From Glaciecola amylolytica (GTDB lineage: Bacteria > Bacteroidota > Bacteroidia > Flavobacteriales_D > Crocinitomicaceae): a stretch of 64,000 nucleotides of DNA. Both the position numbers and the translations under genes were made by a program. The notes below the pieces were generated by a model, which saw only the letters and a program-made list of their open reading frames with translations, had not been told where the DNA came from and made no database searches. This document shows, in pieces, positions 29,776 through 38,330 of the stretch. Numbering within the stretch: the first letter of the stretch is position 1; every line of letters begins with the position of its first letter. The stretch is taken from positions 4,335,501-4,399,500 of the forward strand of contig CP034120.1 in the NCBI GenBank assembly GCA_003856375.1, written 5' to 3'.

Positions 29776-29869
29776 GACATTTACAGATGTAATATTACAG
29801 CATTTGTGACGTGGAGCCTGATACCATATAATGAAACGGGGCGAAATCCGAAAAGCCATATGAGTAGGA
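29776..29869 (+). promoter_or_regulatory. Promoter/leader region A with the conserved GAAAAGCC-ATGAGTAGGA segment
   Basis: It starts with the weak -7 element, followed by CAGATGTAATATTA. The end at 29838-29869 (GGCGAAATCCGAAAAGCC, two bases, ATGAGTAGGA) is nearly identical to 30493-30522. The ATG in the motif opens a nine-codon ORF that stops three bases before the ATG at 29893. It may be a structured leader or a leader peptide; I cannot assign it to a known riboswitch class. Confidence 0.45.
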
Positions 29870-29892
29870 AAACATGCAAAAAATATTGAATC

Positions 29893-30427: not shown

Positions 30428-30746
30428 CAGATTTGCAGATGTAAAATTAGCAGTGGTTTTCAGTGGAATCCGTCTCCACTTTAAAAAACGGAGGCGGAAT
30501 CCGAAAAGCCAAATGAGTAGGATTGAAATGACATTTTTGTTTTACCAATTCACTGGAAAAGAAAACGTAGCGCAATAGGAATTTGATAATTCCGATACAG
30601 CTGAAGATAGATAAATGTATGACGGAAGATTCAAGGGTTTCGTCGGAATGAATTACGCTTCTTGTTTCCTCTTCATTAAAAAGAGTCAACAGATTTTCAA
30701 AGTCAAAAAGCGTTTTCCTTGAGAAATGGGAAACGCTTTTTCTTTT
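30428..30746 (+). ncRNA. Putative short transcript with conserved leader and no clear gene
   Basis: It is delimited by a box-B promoter (-7 element 30428-30435) and a terminator (stem AAAAAGCGTTT / AAACGCTTTTT at 30705-30741 with a T run). It contains the conserved segment 30492-30522, which here can pair upstream (CCGTCTCC with GGAGGCGG). The ATGAGTAGGA start opens a 21-codon ORF ending in TAG at ~30578; a larger protein is absent. It could be a small RNA, a small-peptide gene, or a decayed copy of the neighbouring unit. Confidence 0.45.
30705..30746 (+). terminator. Terminator closing the short transcript
   Basis: 11-bp perfect stem AAAAAGCGTTT / AAACGCTTTTT extended by a few pairs towards the loop, followed by CTTTT. 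Confidence 0.85.
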
Positions 30747-31473: not shown

Positions 31474-32120
31474 TCAATACAAAGTTCATTTTAATATTAT
31501 TTCACCTTCCACTATTCGCTATTGCACTCTATGCCTTAGGGATATGGAAGAGGCTGAAACCGGAACTGAAAGTTCTTGCGTGGTATTTGGTGCTTACCGG
31601 AGTTTTACAAATCATTTCTTTAGTGCTTTGGTTTCTCCATGTAAACAACTTACCGATCCTGCATTTTTTAGTTCCCTTGCGTTTTGTTTTATTGGTTTTT
31701 ATGTATAAAAGCATCCTGAGCGGCTATGTCCGCTCTTGGGTGCTTGATACACTAATGGTGGGTTTTTGCGCATTTTCGATCTTAAACACACTGTTTTTTG
31801 ACCCCTGGGATACCTTCAATTCCAATGCAATGACCGTAGAAAGCATTCTGATGATTATTCTGTCCTTGTCGACCTACGTTTTTCTGATGGATAAACGGAT
31901 GACCGAACATTTGAAAAATTATCTGCGCTCAGCGGAATTGATGAATTCAGGAGTCTTCATTTATTACACCTCGTCTCTCCTCCTGACGTATTTCGGAAAG
32001 TATATCATTCAGGTTATAAATCCTGAATTGAGTCGCTATACTTGGATTATACATGGAATTTTTTCCGTAATTATGTACTGTTACTTCTGGAGAGCGTTAT
32101 GGAAACAGAACACCACATAA
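31470..32120 (+). CDS. Polytopic membrane protein (about seven segments) next to a histidine kinase
   Basis: 216 aa from the TTG at 31470 (INTKFILILFHLPLFAIALYALGIW). Hydrophobic segments at ~4-24, 34-56, 60-80, 88-105, 120-138, 155-175 and 186-206. It resembles the membrane halves that precede kinases in Bacteroidota and may be the sensor part of the kinase downstream, split into its own gene. It overlaps the preceding stop by four bases and the kinase start by 22. Confidence 0.72.
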   Translation: MINTKFILILFHLPLFAIALYALGIWKRLKPELKVLAWYLVLTGVLQIISLVLWFLHVNNLPILHFLVPLRFVLLVFMYKSILSGYVRSWVLDTLMVGFCAFSILNTLFFDPWDTFNSNAMTVESILMIILSLSTYVFLMDKRMTEHLKNYLRSAELMNSGVFIYYTSSLLLTYFGKYIIQVINPELSRYTWIIHGIFSVIMYCYFWRALWKQNTT

Positions 32121-32917
32121 CTTTCATTGAAACCTTGTTCCCTTTTGTAGGCATGGTTTTCCTGATTGCCGCAGGAGTGGTTTTCCTAACTCAGCAATTT
32201 CGTAAAAATCTCTACAGAGAGCAACTTAAGCAAGAAGCATTAAGAAATCAGCATCGATTGGAGTTGCTGCGATCCGGGATTTTGATTCAGGAACAGGAGC
32301 GAAAACGCATTGCTCAGGATATGCACGATGATCTCGGAGCAGTATTGTCCATTTCCAGAATGCACCTGCTTCAGGCCGAACGCAAATACGGTCATCTGGA
32401 TGAACAATTGGTTGCAGATCTGCAAAATGTAAGACAATTAACCGAAAGCTCTATTGAAAATATGCGCCGCATCAGTCATGAATTGATGCCGCCTCAGTTG
32501 GAACTCTTCGGAGTGATCCAAACCCTGGAAGCCGTTTGCGAACAATTGAACAATACCGGTAAAATCAGAAGTATTTTTTACGCAACGGAAGACATTCATT
32601 CATTTATGAAAGATGAATTGATCGATCTTACTTTGTATCGCGTTTGTATGGAATTGATCAACAATACGATCAAGCATGCCGAAGCAACAGAATTGAGAAT
32701 TACCATTACCGGTTCGGAAAAGGAAGTAAAGGTTCATTACGTTGATAACGGAAAAGGACTGCCTGCTGAAAGTTTCGGTAAAGGAGCAGGATTGAAGAAT
32801 ATTAAGAACAGACTACTATTTTTAGAGGGAGATATTTTGTTAGGTACGCAGCAGGAAGGTTTTCATGCTACGGTGAATCTCCCACTGCAATCGATAAAAG
32901 CTGAATTGGAAACATAA
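32099..32917 (+). CDS. Sensor histidine kinase, HisKA_3 type
   Basis: 272 aa from the ATG at 32099 (METEHHITFIETLF), preceded by GGAG; the longer frame from 32042 lies mostly inside the upstream gene. One membrane segment (residues ~13-33) is followed by a coiled-coil linker, the HisKA_3 dimerisation helix with the phospho-acceptor in RKRIAQDMHDDLGAVLS, and an HATPase domain with the N box LINNTIKHAEATEL and G box VDNGKGL. It has only one short membrane anchor, so signal detection probably depends on the preceding membrane protein. Partner of the regulator one base downstream. Confidence 0.92.
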   Translation: METEHHITFIETLFPFVGMVFLIAAGVVFLTQQFRKNLYREQLKQEALRNQHRLELLRSGILIQEQERKRIAQDMHDDLGAVLSISRMHLLQAERKYGHLDEQLVADLQNVRQLTESSIENMRRISHELMPPQLELFGVIQTLEAVCEQLNNTGKIRSIFYATEDIHSFMKDELIDLTLYRVCMELINNTIKHAEATELRITITGSEKEVKVHYVDNGKGLPAESFGKGAGLKNIKNRLLFLEGDILLGTQQEGFHATVNLPLQSIKAELET

Positions 32918-32918
32918 G

Positions 32919-33590
32919 ATGAAAGAACATATTACAATTGGATTGGTAGAAGATCAATTATTATTCAGGAATGGAATTAAAGCCATTTTGAATAGTTGGG
33001 ATGAACTGGAAGTCATTTTTGAATCCGGTGAAGGCTATTCTGTAATTGACCGCCTGCATGAAATGGAACGTACTCCGGATGTTATGCTCGTGGATCTCTC
33101 TCTCCCCGCTGATGGCAATAAAGCTTATTCAGGTGAACAATTGACAATTGATCTGGCGGAACACTTTCCGGAAATGAAAGTATTGATTCTATCAGGCTAC
33201 CAGGACGAACATTTTATAGCCCGCTTAATAGAAATCGGAGCGCATGGCTATTTGGTTAAAGACAGCGATCCTTTGGAGGTCTATCAGGCAATTACAACGA
33301 TTCATCAAAAAGGAGTGTATATCAATCAATTGGCTCTGAAAGCAATTCAGCGAAATTTCGGTAAACGAACAAAAAGTGTCGTTCAGACAAACTCCGATCT
33401 GACACGCCGCGAAATTGAAATTCTTCAGTTGACCTGTGAACAATATACCGCTGAAGAGATTGGCGAAAAACTCTACATCAGTGTAAAAACAGTGAACGGA
33501 CACCGTGCCAATCTTCTGCTGAAAACCGGTTCCAGAAATGCGGCCGGATTGGTTATGTACGCTGTCAAGAACGGTTTGGTGGATATTTGA
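32919..33590 (+). CDS. NarL/LuxR-family response regulator
   Basis: 223 aa. Receiver domain residues ~5-125, with the phosphorylated Asp in VMLVDLSLPADG and the conserved Lys in GYLVKDSDP. The LuxR-type HTH is at ~155-220 (LTRREIEILQLTCEQYTAEEIGEKLYISVKTVNGHRANLL). The receiver has a six-residue-long insertion after the Asp loop (PADGNKAYSGEQL), common in Bacteroidota members. It is one base downstream of the kinase gene. Boxes A, B and C are its most plausible binding sites, because box C has the 7-2-7 NarL layout, but this is inference. Confidence 0.92.
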   Translation: MKEHITIGLVEDQLLFRNGIKAILNSWDELEVIFESGEGYSVIDRLHEMERTPDVMLVDLSLPADGNKAYSGEQLTIDLAEHFPEMKVLILSGYQDEHFIARLIEIGAHGYLVKDSDPLEVYQAITTIHQKGVYINQLALKAIQRNFGKRTKSVVQTNSDLTRREIEILQLTCEQYTAEEIGEKLYISVKTVNGHRANLLLKTGSRNAAGLVMYAVKNGLVDI

Positions 33591-33839: not shown

Positions 33840-33854
33840 TTTTCAAATTGAAAA
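33840..33854. promoter_or_regulatory. TTTTCA-AAT-TGAAAA palindrome before the hybrid kinase gene
   Basis: A perfect 6-3-6 inverted repeat ending 11 bases before the chosen ATG. The same half-sites recur twice at 37795-37829. A weaker relative (AATTCA-TTT-TGGAAA, 33800-33814) is 40 bases upstream. Confidence 0.5.
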
Positions 33855-33865
33855 TTCATGTCGAT

Positions 33866-36370
33866 ATGAAAATGGGTAGGAAGAATCTTCTTTTTGAGCG
33901 TATTCTCTTCGCGGTAATCGGACTGTTGCTGATCTTCGTTTGTACAACCGGATATTGGGTGTATGACCGGCTTTCGCAAGTTTCAGAGAGCCCCTTACCG
34001 ACAGATTTGAAAGAAAACCGCCGTTTTATTGTCCGCGATTTGAACAACAATATTTTGAAATCGGATAATTTGACCTATTCCTACATTTACCAAAATAATC
34101 CCGATGCTCCTTTGGATTTCGAAATCCTGGAATCGCAAACAAATCGCAAGATCAACTTATTGCAATCATACAAACCGGAAGATTCAACCTATCAGGAAAA
34201 AATCCGGAAATTGAATGCTTTGGTTCAGGCACGGTTCTCTAACCTGGATACTTTGATGAGTATTAAAAATGAGAATCGGGTAAATGAAACCATGGCAATA
34301 GTGGAAAGCGAGGTAGAAAATGCCAGTGAAGTTGCCAAGATTAAAATGGAGATCCGGGACAAGGTGAATGAACTTCAAAATCCCGCTCCTCAAACTTCTC
34401 AGCCTCCTCCAAGCCAGGAAGAATCGAAAAAGAAATGGTTTCAGCGAAAGAATAAAAAGACAGAGCAGCCCGCAGCTCCTGTTGTACATCAGGCAACACC
34501 GCAAGTCAAAATCAAAGCTTCGGATATCGCTGCTGCAAGTACCAATGAAATAGCACAAAAAATCAGATCAGTTAAAACGGCTGCGGTTTCGAAAGAATCC
34601 AGAATGAACCGCTATAAATTGAGTCTGGAACAGGAAAACAATTTGTTGAGTAAGGAAATCGGCCAGATTTTCCGGTCGATTGAGCTGGCCGATAAAAAAG
34701 AACTTCTGAAAGAAACACAACATGCCAAACAGGTTGCAGCGGAAACTAATCAGATCATTTTTCTTTTCAGCATCATTTCCAGTTTGCTTATCATCATGAT
34801 CATCATTCTGATCATTACCCTGTTCAATAAATCGAAAGAAACGAATTATCAGCTGAAACTGGCAAAAGATAAAAGTGACCAGCTCACAGAAGCAAAATCG
34901 CGTTTCCTGGCAACCATGAGTCATGAAATCCGGACACCTTTAAATGCCATTTCAGGTTTTACCGAACAGCTTTTCTTTGAACCCTTGAATCAAAGTGCGG
35001 CCAAAAAAGTGAAGATTATCCGCAATTCGGTTAAACACCTTTCTCAGATCACGAACGAAATTCTGGATTTGTCCAAATTGGAAAAGGATCACATTCAATT
35101 GGAGACCATTGCCTTTAATCCAGCAAATGAAATTATGATGCTCCACGAACAGTATGAATTGCAGGTTCTGGAGAAAAATAACCGACTAGTGGTCGAACTG
35201 GATGAAAACCCTTTCCCGAATGTGATGGGAGATCCTTTGCGTTTCCGTCAGATTATTATTAATCTGATCAGTAATGCCAACAAGTTCACAAAAGATGGAT
35301 TGATCACCATTGATCTGAAGTTCAAAGAACTGGATCCGCGAAATATCCGCTGTTTGATTGAAGTACAGGATCAGGGAATCGGAATGTCGCCGAGTCAGAA
35401 AGAACGCATTTTCGAACCTTTTGAACAGGCAGATCTGACGGTAACCAGAAAGTATGGCGGAACTGGTTTGGGTTTGAGCATTACCAAACAAATTATCGAC
35501 AAACAAAACGGCTCCATTCGATTGAACAGCGAAGAAGGAATCGGAACGACATTTTACATCGAAATTCCGTTCGAAGTAACGGATGAAAAGATCGATGCTC
35601 CACGCGCACCTTCACGTACGGATTTCTCGTTTCTGAAAGATAAAACCGTACTGATCGTAGACGATGAACCCTTTAATCGTACGCTCTTACGAAGTATGTT
35701 TCACGGAGTGAATGTGAAGCTGCTCGAAGCAGTAAACGGATTGGAAGCGCTGGAATCTTTGAAAAATAATGACATTGATTTCGTTTTGCTGGATGTGCGC
35801 ATGCCGGAAATGAACGGACATGAACTCCGGCAGAAAATGGCTGAAATGGAAACCCTGGATCAGATTCCTGTGGTGGGTTTGACCGCTACGCTGGATGAAG
35901 GAAAAAGAGAAGATATGTTGGATTCGGGATGGACGGAAGTACTTACCAAACCTGTTAACCCGGAGGAACTAAGAAGAATATTATTTCAAATATATAAAGA
36001 CCGCAATATGGGAACTGAATTAGATGAAGCAGATTTTAAAAGTCTTCAAAAACTGACGAACAATAACGACAGTTTTTATATGGAACTCCTGCAAACATTT
36101 GTGAGTTCGACTGAGAACGGTTTGTTGAAGATCGAGGGTCTGGTTCAAACAGAGAACTGGGCAGAGATTTCGGAATTAGCACATCAATTGGCTGCTCCGT
36201 TCAAGCATTTTGGAGCGAATAATTGCTACACCACGCTAAAAGAGGTCGAACGGATGGGAAAAGAATCCAAAATCGATTCTGCTTCAATGATAGAATTGAT
36301 CGAGGTCTTTGAAGAGCAGGCAAATCACATAATCACACAAGTGAAAGATAAATTAAACTCAAATGACTGA
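33866..36370 (+). CDS. Hybrid histidine kinase with receiver and Hpt domains
   Basis: 834 aa from the ATG at 33866; an in-frame TTG at 33848 is possible but overlaps the upstream palindrome. TM1 at ~8-30 and TM2 at ~295-320 (IIFLFSIISSLLIIMIIILIITLF) flank a largely coiled-coil, Pro/Lys-rich periplasmic region. Then HisKA (SRFLATMSHEIRTPLNAISGF, His of SHEIRTPL), HATPase (LISNANKFTKDG; DQGIGMS; YGGTGLGLSI), a receiver (VLIVDDEPFNR; Asp in FVLLDVRMPEM) and a C-terminal Hpt domain with AHQLAAPFKHFGA. It is the partner of the NtrC-type regulator whose start overlaps its stop by eight bases. Confidence 0.92.
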   Translation: MKMGRKNLLFERILFAVIGLLLIFVCTTGYWVYDRLSQVSESPLPTDLKENRRFIVRDLNNNILKSDNLTYSYIYQNNPDAPLDFEILESQTNRKINLLQSYKPEDSTYQEKIRKLNALVQARFSNLDTLMSIKNENRVNETMAIVESEVENASEVAKIKMEIRDKVNELQNPAPQTSQPPPSQEESKKKWFQRKNKKTEQPAAPVVHQATPQVKIKASDIAAASTNEIAQKIRSVKTAAVSKESRMNRYKLSLEQENNLLSKEIGQIFRSIELADKKELLKETQHAKQVAAETNQIIFLFSIISSLLIIMIIILIITLFNKSKETNYQLKLAKDKSDQLTEAKSRFLATMSHEIRTPLNAISGFTEQLFFEPLNQSAAKKVKIIRNSVKHLSQITNEILDLSKLEKDHIQLETIAFNPANEIMMLHEQYELQVLEKNNRLVVELDENPFPNVMGDPLRFRQIIINLISNANKFTKDGLITIDLKFKELDPRNIRCLIEVQDQGIGMSPSQKERIFEPFEQADLTVTRKYGGTGLGLSITKQIIDKQNGSIRLNSEEGIGTTFYIEIPFEVTDEKIDAPRAPSRTDFSFLKDKTVLIVDDEPFNRTLLRSMFHGVNVKLLEAVNGLEALESLKNNDIDFVLLDVRMPEMNGHELRQKMAEMETLDQIPVVGLTATLDEGKREDMLDSGWTEVLTKPVNPEELRRILFQIYKDRNMGTELDEADFKSLQKLTNNNDSFYMELLQTFVSSTENGLLKIEGLVQTENWAEISELAHQLAAPFKHFGANNCYTTLKEVERMGKESKIDSASMIELIEVFEEQANHIITQVKDKLNSND

Positions 36371-37730
36371 TATGGAAACCGGCATCACACAACGTATTTT
36401 CATAGTAGAAGACAATGATTGGTATCAAAAATTGTTGGTACATACCGTTTCATTGAACCCGGATTACGAAGTGGAATCCTTTTCAACCGGAAAGGAGCTG
36501 CTTACCCGTTTGAATAATGAAATTCCGGATTTGATTACGATGGATTACCGCCTGCCCGATATCTCAGGGGAGGAATTATTGGAAAAGATCAAATCCATCA
36601 GTCCGGGAACACAGGTAATCGTTATTTCGGAACAGGAAGAAATTGAAACGGCGGTGAGTCTTTTGAAATTGGGAGCTTATGATTATATCGTAAAAGGAAC
36701 CGATATCCGTAACCGTTTGTTGAACACGCTTTCCAACGCGCAGAATCAAACGAAACTCCTGAAGAAGATCGAAAAACTGGAGCAGGAAGTCCAGACAAAA
36801 TACAATTTCAGTGATACGATTATCGGGCAAAGCAGTAAAATGCAGCACATTTTTATGCTGCTTCAAAAAGCCGTTTCGAACAACATCACTGTTTCCATAA
36901 CCGGAGAAACCGGGACTGGAAAAGAAGTGATTGCCAAAGCGATTCACTACAATTCTATTTACAAGGATAAACCCTTCGTTGCGATCAACGTGGCCGCAAT
37001 TCCGAAAGAATTGTTCGAAAGCGAGTTGTTCGGGCATGAGAAAGGATCGTTTACAGGTGCCAATCAAACGCGGATCGGGAAGTTTGAAGAGGCAGACGGA
37101 GGAACCCTGTTTCTGGATGAAATTGCAGAATTGGATCCTGTATTTCAGGCAAAACTATTGCGTGCATTACAGGAGCGTGAAATTACACGTGTCGGAGGAA
37201 ATAAGATTTACAAGTTCAATTGCCGGATTATTGTCGCAACCCACAAAAATCTATTGCAGGAAGTGAAATCCGGTGCTTTCCGTGAAGATTTATACTATCG
37301 TTTGTTCGGTCTTCCGATTGAACTGCCGCCTTTGCGTGAGCGCGAAAAGGACACACTTTTGTTGAGCAAGAGTTTTGTAGAGCGTTTTTGCAAGGAAAAC
37401 AGCATGGGAGTAAAAAAGATCAGTCCGGCGGCACAAAACAAATTGTTGGCTTATCCGTGGCCGGGGAATGTGCGTGAGCTCAAATCAGTCATCGAACTGG
37501 CTTCCGTTATGTCGATGAATGACCTCATTGAAGCAGATGATATCGTGGTGGCAAGTGCTGATATTCTTTCAGGGATTATTGCTGAAGAAATGAGTTTGAG
37601 AGCTTACAATCGAAGAATCGTTCAATTGTTTTTGGATAAATACAACAACAACACCAAGTTGGTGGCAGATAAATTAGATATTGGTCAAACGACCATTTAT
37701 CGGATGTTGAAAGAAGATGAGGAGGATTAA
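36363..37730 (+). CDS. NtrC-family sigma-54-dependent response regulator
   Basis: 455 aa. Receiver residues ~9-125 (FIVEDNDWYQKLL; Asp in LITMDYRLPD; Lys in YDYIVKGTD). The AAA+ domain shows Walker A GETGTGKEVIAKAI, the sigma-54-contacting loop as GSFTGA (usual GAFTGA), Walker B GGTLFLDEIAEL, and the arginine-finger region YYRLFGLPIELPPLRER. A Fis-type HTH closes the protein (NNTKLVADKLDIGQTTIYRML). It opens promoters with sigma-54 after phosphorylation. Its reading frame overlaps the kinase stop. The likely target sites are the TTTTCA-N3-TGAAAA repeats. Confidence 0.93.
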   Translation: MTDMETGITQRIFIVEDNDWYQKLLVHTVSLNPDYEVESFSTGKELLTRLNNEIPDLITMDYRLPDISGEELLEKIKSISPGTQVIVISEQEEIETAVSLLKLGAYDYIVKGTDIRNRLLNTLSNAQNQTKLLKKIEKLEQEVQTKYNFSDTIIGQSSKMQHIFMLLQKAVSNNITVSITGETGTGKEVIAKAIHYNSIYKDKPFVAINVAAIPKELFESELFGHEKGSFTGANQTRIGKFEEADGGTLFLDEIAELDPVFQAKLLRALQEREITRVGGNKIYKFNCRIIVATHKNLLQEVKSGAFREDLYYRLFGLPIELPPLREREKDTLLLSKSFVERFCKENSMGVKKISPAAQNKLLAYPWPGNVRELKSVIELASVMSMNDLIEADDIVVASADILSGIIAEEMSLRAYNRRIVQLFLDKYNNNTKLVADKLDIGQTTIYRMLKEDEED

Positions 37731-37794
37731 TGTCAGATTTCCACCTTTTTGGTAATGAAAAAGGTGGAAGACAAACTTAAAACAGAAGATTAAA

Positions 37795-37829
37795 TTTTCA
37801 TTTTGAAAATATTTTTTTCATTTTGAAAA
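37795..37829. promoter_or_regulatory. Two TTTTCA-TTT-TGAAAA palindromes exactly 20 bp apart (enhancer-like)
   Basis: Perfect 6-3-6 inverted repeats at 37795-37809 and 37815-37829. They lie on the same face of the helix, about 80-100 bases before the TGGCACG at 37894, as for NtrC-type upstream activating sequences. The same palindrome precedes the kinase gene. Confidence 0.55.
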
Positions 37830-37852
37830 TAAATTGAAGATGTGCTATTTTT

Positions 37853-37879
37853 AAAACCGTTGATTTTCAGCGGTTTTTT
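37853..37879 (+). terminator. Terminator of the hybrid kinase-NtrC operon
   Basis: Stem AAAACCGTTGA / TCAGCGGTTTT (one G-U) with a three-base loop and a T run, 122 bases after the regulator stop. It separates the two palindromes from the sigma-54-like element. Confidence 0.8.
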
Positions 37880-37893
37880 CTTTTTAGCCGCTT

Positions 37894-37909
37894 TGGCACG
37901 TTCTTTATA
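37894..37909 (+). promoter_or_regulatory. Sigma-54-like promoter (TGGCACG-N4-TTATA)
   Basis: The -24 half is a full match (TGGCACG). The -12 half reads TTATA instead of TTGCA, so the invariant GC is missing, which lowers confidence. It is directly downstream of the sigma-54 activator gene and of the paired palindromes. Confidence 0.4.
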
Positions 37910-38053
37910 ATAGATACAGCAAGAAAATCACTTTTGAAAGAACGATTTCAGAGATAGTGAAACAAAGTTGAAGAAAATCTGAGTTATATAGGAAGTATTT
38001 CCGTTTAATGGAGTGGTGAAGGTCTCGTTTCGGGGCCCGACCACGACTCGAAA

Positions 38054-38206
38054 ATGCAACCAACGATTTTGCAATGGTGTAGACTTAGGAATGATGGTAT
38101 AGAAGTGGGTTTGAATTACAACGTTCCTAAGGCACCTGTTGCGAAAGAAGATTATGAAGAAAGATTATTAGAAGAGTATACTATCAATCATAACGCTATA
38201 AGTTAG
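38054..38206 (+). CDS. Possible 50-aa protein downstream of the sigma-54-like promoter
   Basis: ATG at 38054, TAG at 38204. It starts MQPTILQWCRLRNDGIEVGL and ends in a charged helical part (KEDYEERLLEEYTINHNAIS). It has no signal peptide. The codon pattern looks protein-like and the unit is closed by a terminator at 38297, so it could be a real small gene; no family is recognised. Confidence 0.4.
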   Translation: MQPTILQWCRLRNDGIEVGLNYNVPKAPVAKEDYEERLLEEYTINHNAIS

Positions 38207-38296
38207 GTAACAATTAGGTTAGTTTAGGTTTCAGTTTAGGTTTAATTTAGAGGTATACATGTACAGGTTGATAGTGAAGTACGTGTGGTAGCTACG

Positions 38297-38330
38297 CCCC
38301 CGTTGATTTATTCAACGGGGGTTTGTATTT
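38297..38330 (+). terminator. Rho-independent terminator
   Basis: 10-bp perfect stem CCCCCGTTGA / TCAACGGGGG, five-base loop, then a T-rich tail. It closes the transcript expected from the sigma-54-like promoter. Confidence 0.85.

Follow-up and report, generated by a model that had tools for sequence, protein, structure and literature searches.

The window analysed here is a stretch of 64,000 nucleotides of contig CP034120.1 (positions 4,335,501 to 4,399,500), deposited as Glaciecola amylolytica, and it is part of the single contig of 4,606,342 bp that was searched as the genome. Its segment from 33,840 to 38,330 carries a gene for a hybrid histidine kinase and one for an NtrC-type response regulator, followed by a pair of palindromes, a sigma-54-like promoter and a conserved unit that looks like a non-coding RNA (Table 1). 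We propose that these parts may belong to a signalling circuit with the logic of the Gac/Rsm system, in which a phosphorelay would drive an RNA that titrates a small RNA-binding protein of the RNA recognition motif (RRM) type.

Table 1. Features of the locus, in positions of the window
Feature	Position	Strand	Basis or remark
Second, imperfect box AATTCATTTTGGAAA	33800..33814	.	40 bp upstream of the kinase-proximal box
Box TTTTCAAATTGAAAA, probable autoregulatory site	33840..33854	.	Ends 11 bp before the conserved kinase start
Hybrid histidine kinase	33866..36370	+	HisKA, HATPase_c and REC above cut-off; conserved start ATG 33866
NtrC-type response regulator	36363..37730	+	REC and sigma-54 activator AAA+, GSFTGA loop; Fis-like tail below cut-off
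Palindrome pair, putative upstream activating sequence	37795..37829	.	Palindrome matching, conservation, genome counts
Terminator-like hairpin, probably of the kinase-regulator operon	37853..37877	+	Sequence varies, pairing kept by eye
Sigma-54-like promoter TTTGGCACGTTCTTTATAA	37892..37910	+	-24 half canonical; -12 half AT instead of GC
Predicted non-coding RNA, ~400 nt	37920..38325	+	Genus comparison
Variable hairpin	38011..38046	+	5/10 pairs changed on both sides; alignment columns 114-153
Long-range helix CTTAGGAAT / GTTCCTAAG	38084..38131	+	Alignment columns 212-259
Invariant block, proposed decoy sites	38203..38255	+	TTAGGT at 38203, 38214, 38224, 38236, and TTTAGAGGT variant
Intrinsic terminator of the RNA	38296..38322	+	Terminator prediction

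The kinase-regulator genes and the palindrome pair

At the C terminus of the kinase an Hpt domain scores 24.5 bits, 0.1 bit below its cut-off of 24.6. The regulator matches the sigma-54 activator domain (PF00158) with 229.9 bits and the receiver domain (PF00072) with 80.6 bits; its Fis-type tail stays below the cut-off (HTH_8, 15.9 bits against 22), and its loop reads GSFTGA in the translation where GAFTGA is expected for the NtrC family. Its nearest named relatives are records from Fluviicola and other Flavobacteriales, with 95-97% identity over the best segment at 7 of 8 loci. A REC-AAA+ regulator beside a HisKA-HATPase-REC kinase with a borderline Hpt is the arrangement of other NtrC-family activators with hybrid kinases, from which the present locus differs by a 15-bp palindrome at 20-bp spacing and by the GSFTGA loop.

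The palindrome TTTTCANNNTGAAAA is found exactly at 33840, before the kinase, and at 37795 and 37815, after the regulator, the latter two 20 bp apart centre to centre, precisely where an earlier reading made from the letters alone (the sequence-only reading) had placed them. Taken singly, the palindrome is unremarkable by count in the window and weak evidence alone, because 5 matches with one mismatch stand against 2.19 expected and 7 of 100 shuffles also reach 5. The genome scan which that reading had proposed gave 15 exact matches versus 4 for the reversed pattern, which was the control for all palindrome, pair and TTAGGT patterns. Of the 12 that lie outside the window, nine have no further box within 70 bp, two are accompanied by a weaker box (at 16 or 28 bp), and one is part of a second 20-bp pair at 3711984-3712018. 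The single palindrome was rejected as a genome-wide regulon marker, with only 1 of the 12 sitting in a 20-bp pair. The specific element is the pair rather than the single box: with 3 mismatches or fewer the genome has it three times and its reversed form not at all, and allowing up to 2 mismatches it was detected in 22 of 200 family genomes, again versus 0 of 200 for the reversed pattern.

The occurrence of the pair follows that of the regulator gene. Among 36 family genomes, the pair was present in 13 of the 20 that carry a close regulator homologue (E at most 1e-100, a threshold of our own choosing) and in none of the 16 that do not (Fisher p 5e-5). With one genome per genus the figures are 4 of 10 and 0 of 13 (p 0.024), and these are the safer ones because the genomes share ancestry. 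Such co-occurrence supports the suggestion of the sequence-only reading that the palindromes are putative operators of the adjacent regulator.

That reading also had the regulator control its own operon. The box before the kinase is indeed exact in all six relatives that cover it (L010-L015), and a second, imperfect box that had been overlooked lies 39-40 bp further upstream in 6 of 7 sequences, window included (3 mismatches in the window and L011, 2 in four relatives; none was found in L010). Nonetheless, activation of the kinase operon from these boxes is unlikely, because the nearer one ends 11 bp before the start codon, and autorepression would be the likelier sense of the control.

A sigma-54-like promoter and a conserved unit without a conserved ORF

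The locus was compared, as the sequence-only reading had advised, in nine sequences of the Fluviicola group (the window, L010-L014, L016, L031 and L032), and the arrangement of pair and promoter is kept in all nine. The -24 half pointed out there is TTTGGCACG at 37892-37900, with its GG at 37895-37896, and TTTGGCA stands in 9 of 9 sequences. From the centre of the pair to the first G of the -24 half the distance is 83 or 84 bp in every one of them, and it is kept although the hairpin lying in between, which had escaped the sequence-only reading, varies in sequence. In L013, about 350 bp are inserted between the regulator gene and the pair, and the pair stays beside the promoter. The genome has one gene for a sigma-54 factor (RpoN; PF04552, 178.7 bits).

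We then considered 34 non-identical pair sites in the collected loci, 8 of which are orthologues of the window site. At 26 of the 34, TTGGCA or TGGCAY is found at a distance of 35-125 bp from the pair, on one side or both, compared with 5 for the reversed, 4 for the complemented and 2 for the reverse-complemented element and with a mean of 2.07 (maximum 7) over 500 shuffles. The spacing of the -12 half was examined in 15 sites selected from the 34 for bearing the motif and collapsed by orthology (the 8 window-RNA orthologues to one; L152, L153 and two L155 rows to another), a set that L159 entered on the side bearing TTGGTA and that omits the 8 motif-less pairs and L092, which is without GC. 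In this set GC follows exactly 10 bp after GG at 6 of 15 sites, and at nine other offsets it does so 0 times or once. A second pair site of the genome, at 4076809, has AT at the -12 position, as does the window promoter. The strict consensus TGGCACN5TTGC, close to the pattern TGGCAC-N5-TTG for which a genome scan had been advised, is no guide here because it gives 4 matches versus 11 when reversed, and that scan was uninformative. Comparison thus supports an activator acting with sigma-54, with a transcript start expected near 37920, and the pair is very probably the site of the regulator and drives the RNA.

Nine of the 14 genus genomes (G000-G013, treated here as the freshwater bacterium Fluviicola) match the region 37920-38325 over its full length. 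Within this region the window has a 50-codon open reading frame (ORF) at 38054-38206, which the sequence-only reading had noted ahead of the terminator. A small protein gene would agree with the open frame in the window and with a 33-aa frame in L031 that ends alike; the ORF is not conserved in any of the eight relatives and has no Pfam match, so that this explanation, which we rejected, is barely credible. What stands of the earlier proposal is a conserved unit followed by a strong terminator, which was located at 38296-38322; the unit looks like a non-coding RNA. In 10 of the 104 consensus pairs predicted by RNAalifold both sides have changed, and the variable hairpin accounts for 5 of the 10. 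The block of four TTAGGT motifs (38203-38241) and the TTTAGAGGT variant are identical in 9 of 9 sequences. No family of Rfam release 15, whose gathering score was our criterion, matches at that score over 37920-38325, the best matches scoring below it, and a tmRNA or another known structured RNA at the locus was rejected.

Other genes recur behind such pairs and may be further targets of the regulator. In 8 genomes, other genera included, DUF4382 genes follow a total of 9 pairs, of which two are in the genome of the window; single-domain REC proteins were seen behind pairs as well, one above the cut-off, one just below and three more by translation only. The two own DUF4382 genes (L027 2059-2832 and L082 3937-4458) follow the only other 20-bp pairs of the genome at up to 3 mismatches. 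In G013 (L085 2936-3230), a pair is followed by TTTTGGCATATTGTTCGC and, roughly 110 bp on, by a terminator-like hairpin, with no obvious gene; this unit is possibly a further sigma-54 RNA.

The TTAGGT motif at an RRM gene and in other short units

RRM proteins are common in Bacteroidota, and Shine-Dalgarno sequences are rarely used in these genomes; we know little of the RNA motifs and circuits of Bacteroidota RRM proteins. The genome of the window encodes two RRM_1 proteins (PF00076, cut-off 20.7), with 72.7 bits for the one whose gene carries the motif and 83.3 bits for its paralogue. At the former gene (3064159-3064566) TTAGGT ends 2 nt before the ATG and occurs again at -46, with a small hairpin between the two copies. 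We collected 26 orthologues (L270 used instead of L189; L199, whose start was not found, and L201, L202 and L203, at 41-43% identity, left out) and, as background, 529 other ORF starts drawn from the collected loci rather than from whole genomes. The 60 nt upstream of the start contain TTAGGT in 18 of 26 orthologues, 1 of 20 paralogues and 12 of 529 other starts, and the nearest 16 nt contain TTAG in 21 of 26 (8 of 12 outside the genus), 0 of 20 and 31 of 529, respectively. A further copy at -45 to -53 is present in 10 of 14 genus orthologues, and the hairpin in front of the gene varies while its pairing is kept by eye (GGAC/GTCC, GGAA/TTCC, GAACC/GGTTC). A short motif repeated in the predicted RNA is also found at the start of a gene for an RNA-binding protein, as in systems of the Csr/Rsm type.

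Four of the five genus genomes without the long RNA keep TTAGGT at the RRM start, the fifth (G003) having Ns there. The motif at the RRM gene is independent of the long RNA, since it is present in genomes with no match to that RNA, and this fits an older RRM circuit to which a phosphorelay-driven RNA was added later. The best-scoring solved chains for the RRM protein are eukaryotic RRM proteins, with hnRNP A1 lower (best 60 of 95). Musashi RRMs recognise RUnAGU with a UAG core, and translation in E. coli is repressed when such a protein binds close to the beginning of a coding region (PMC10942595). Binding of UUAGGU by the bacterial RRM protein is probable in our judgement.

Moreover, units bearing the motif are found elsewhere. 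In G025, from another genus (L087), a perfect pair is followed by TTTGGCACGTTGATTGAAA and by a short unit that carries three TTAGGT together with a terminator; its sequence does not otherwise resemble the window. Two units of this kind, roughly 300 bp from each other, are present in G116; the first is preceded by one perfect box and the second by two weaker ones at 20-bp spacing. In L198 (G020), CTTTGGCACAATCAGGGGTATAAG shortly before the RRM start codon resembles an element near the G116 boxes. A second RNA-like family consists of TTAGGTGGTTAGGTTAGGTT with a hairpin behind it. It is represented by one to four copies per genome in 12 of 14 genus genomes (no copies are listed for G004 and G010, where some may be missed, the pattern having required an ATG close behind) and also in G363, of another genus. 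Over 14 aligned copies, 8 of 24 consensus pairs are changed on both sides. In 13 of the 18 sequences of this family examined, a TAnnTTTG box lies just upstream, which we take to be the Bacteroidota -7 element; no 20-bp pair was found before the 17 copies examined, and the two copies in the genome of the window match no Rfam family. G018 (L205, L215) also has two groups of two TTAGGT-rich units, all four of them much alike.

A proposed Gac/Rsm-like circuit and competing explanations

We propose that the hybrid kinase would phosphorylate the NtrC-type regulator, which would then bind TTTTCANNNTGAAAA pairs at 20-bp spacing and activate sigma-54 RNA polymerase. Its nearest target would be the RNA, unannotated and about 400 nt long, with its start near 37920, and further ones the DUF4382 and single-domain REC proteins, with the boxes before the kinase supplying feedback. 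The RNA, with four UUAGGU motifs, may be a decoy for the one small RRM-type protein, whose own mRNA, with UUAGGU at its start codon, is probably autorepressed. Once the signal is on, the decoy would be made, the RRM protein titrated and its target mRNAs released. Comparison supports the pair and its association with the regulator gene, the sigma-54 pattern, the conserved unit without an ORF and the motif it has in common with the RRM gene; from these we infer transcription, phosphotransfer, binding, the direction of control, the RRM-UUAGGU contact and titration. We give the circuit as a whole, from kinase to autoregulated RRM protein, a probability of about 0.5; a decoy role, as opposed to another use of the motif, stands at even odds. 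It can tentatively be extended, at somewhat less than even odds, to a Csr/Rsm-like system of the family's own, in which a UUAGGU-binding RRM protein would repress its own and other mRNAs and be titrated by otherwise unrelated UUAGGU-array RNAs, those of about 65 nt with housekeeping-type promoters and the long ones under phosphorelay and sigma-54, the array rather than the fold being kept by evolution.

The kind of circuit is known, and its parts appear to differ from those already described. In the GacS/GacA-RsmY/RsmZ-RsmA system a kinase relay leads to repeat-motif RNAs that titrate an autoregulated RNA-binding protein. A hybrid kinase relay, a repeated short motif and a presumably titrated, autoregulated RNA-binding protein are what the two would share; the present one differs in having NtrC and sigma-54 for GacA, an RRM protein for CsrA/RsmA, UUAGGU for GGA and an RNA without a match in Rfam release 15. 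In LuxO-Qrr and GlrR-GlmY an NtrC-type regulator with upstream sites and a sigma-54 promoter likewise drives a small RNA (sRNA) gene; what is unlike them here is an RNA of about 400 nt with a repeated motif, an off-consensus -12 half, another phylum and no known pairing target. In our searches of the literature on bacterial RRM proteins, sRNAs, sigma-54 and decoy RNAs in Bacteroidota, mostly by title, no description of such a circuit was found, and neither Fluviicola sRNAs nor RRM autoregulation as search subjects returned any paper. If true, the logic of Csr/Rsm would have been invented independently from eukaryote-like RNA-binding domains. With a defined motif, a putative site of autoregulation, two families of RNA and a promoter under signal control to start from, RRM function in bacteria becomes directly testable.

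The decoy has a competitor in a base-pairing sRNA of the kind of Qrr or GlmY, for which the UUAGGU motifs would be landing pads of an RRM protein that acts as a chaperone or competitor and is not titrated. NtrC-type/sigma-54 circuits are already familiar drivers of such sRNAs, as LuxO/Qrr and GlrR/GlmY illustrate. A related case in the same phylum is RbpB with FopS/GibS of Bacteroides thetaiotaomicron, which combines a Bacteroidota RRM protein with a multicopy sRNA family and a UUAG-containing seed region; in the accessible part of that report RbpB counteracts FopS-10 and favours those regions of its RNA ligands that are single-stranded, and the FopS R1' query contains ATTAGATTTAAGGTTAAC (PMC11697453). 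Unlike the window RNA, FopS are transcribed from housekeeping promoters and act on susC mRNAs by base-pairing, and the same part of the report notes no motif at the start of the RRM gene (PMC11697453). FopS are reported there as deposited in Rfam (PMC11697453); the window RNA and the short-RNA loci of its genome match no FopS family at gathering score, the inclusion of FopS in release 15 not being established. Several motif copies kept while the rest diverges, as in the G025 unit, fit a decoy better, and the RRM start codon bears the motif itself and not its complement. We therefore regard a base-pairing sRNA as unlikely, yet as the most serious of the competitors.

Two further explanations would each remove one link of the circuit. 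A housekeeping sigma factor could transcribe the RNA from TATAAT at 37906-37911, which would leave the pair as the operator of another protein, and this is what the presence of TATAAT in 8 of 9 sequences and a -12 half other than GC would suggest. The conserved TTTGGCA, however, is too close to TATAAT for a -35 element, L032 (G013) has TAGAAT, and other pair sites show GG-N10-GC, which makes such a promoter improbable. An equally poor prospect is that TTAGGT in front of the RRM gene supplies no more than an ordinary Shine-Dalgarno-like AGG and that its recurrence in the RNAs reflects composition. AGG does stand 3 nt before the ATG in most Fluviicola-group orthologues, a spacing that is short but possible, and reversed patterns are commoner than the motif; against this, few of the other ORF starts have the motif, the paralogue almost never does, and an additional upstream copy stands in most genus orthologues of the RRM gene, with a small hairpin in between, seen by eye.

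Several results weigh against the circuit that we favour. As the sequence-only reading had conceded, the -12 half is the weak point of the promoter: AT replaces GC, and it is kept as TTTATAATA in 8 of 9 sequences and as TTTAGAATA in L032. Moreover, 8 of 34 pairs have no TTGGCA-like element, 7 of 20 genomes carrying the regulator gene show no pair, and 5 of 14 genus genomes lack a match to the long RNA. In the folded RNA covariation contributes only -0.24 of -73.77 kcal/mol, and the predicted pairs of the TTAGGT block never vary, so that covariation is silent there; exposure of the repeats is only assumed, because thermodynamic folding predicts no unusual openness of the block (mean unpaired 0.34-0.47 versus 0.37-0.42 over the whole RNA). 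The bare TTAGGT triple occurs in 24 of 399 order genomes versus 50 for the reversed control, with wider gaps in 9 of 28 versus 20 of 28, and the two-site-plus-ATG pattern has 61 matches in 14 genomes versus 180 for its reverse. Because reversed controls are commoner than the motif, the argument from TTAGGT rests on context, and the triple was rejected as a stand-alone genome marker. In addition, several TTAGGT clusters elsewhere are without a pair, and several matches are coding or simple repeats (e.g. L102, L106, L119, L204, L206, L207). No second mRNA target was found in the genus scan, where nothing but the RRM gene and the short RNAs was seen by eye to recur, and independent use of the motif by the RRM gene and the RNA also fits.

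Finally, two features lie further upstream in the window. A second two-component pair at 32042-33590, composed of a HisKA_3 kinase and a LuxR-type regulator, directly precedes the kinase/NtrC pair, and two DUF805 RNA motifs (RF03081) on the + strand, at 29806-29874 and 30458-30527, about 650 bp apart, flank an ORF of 122 aa.

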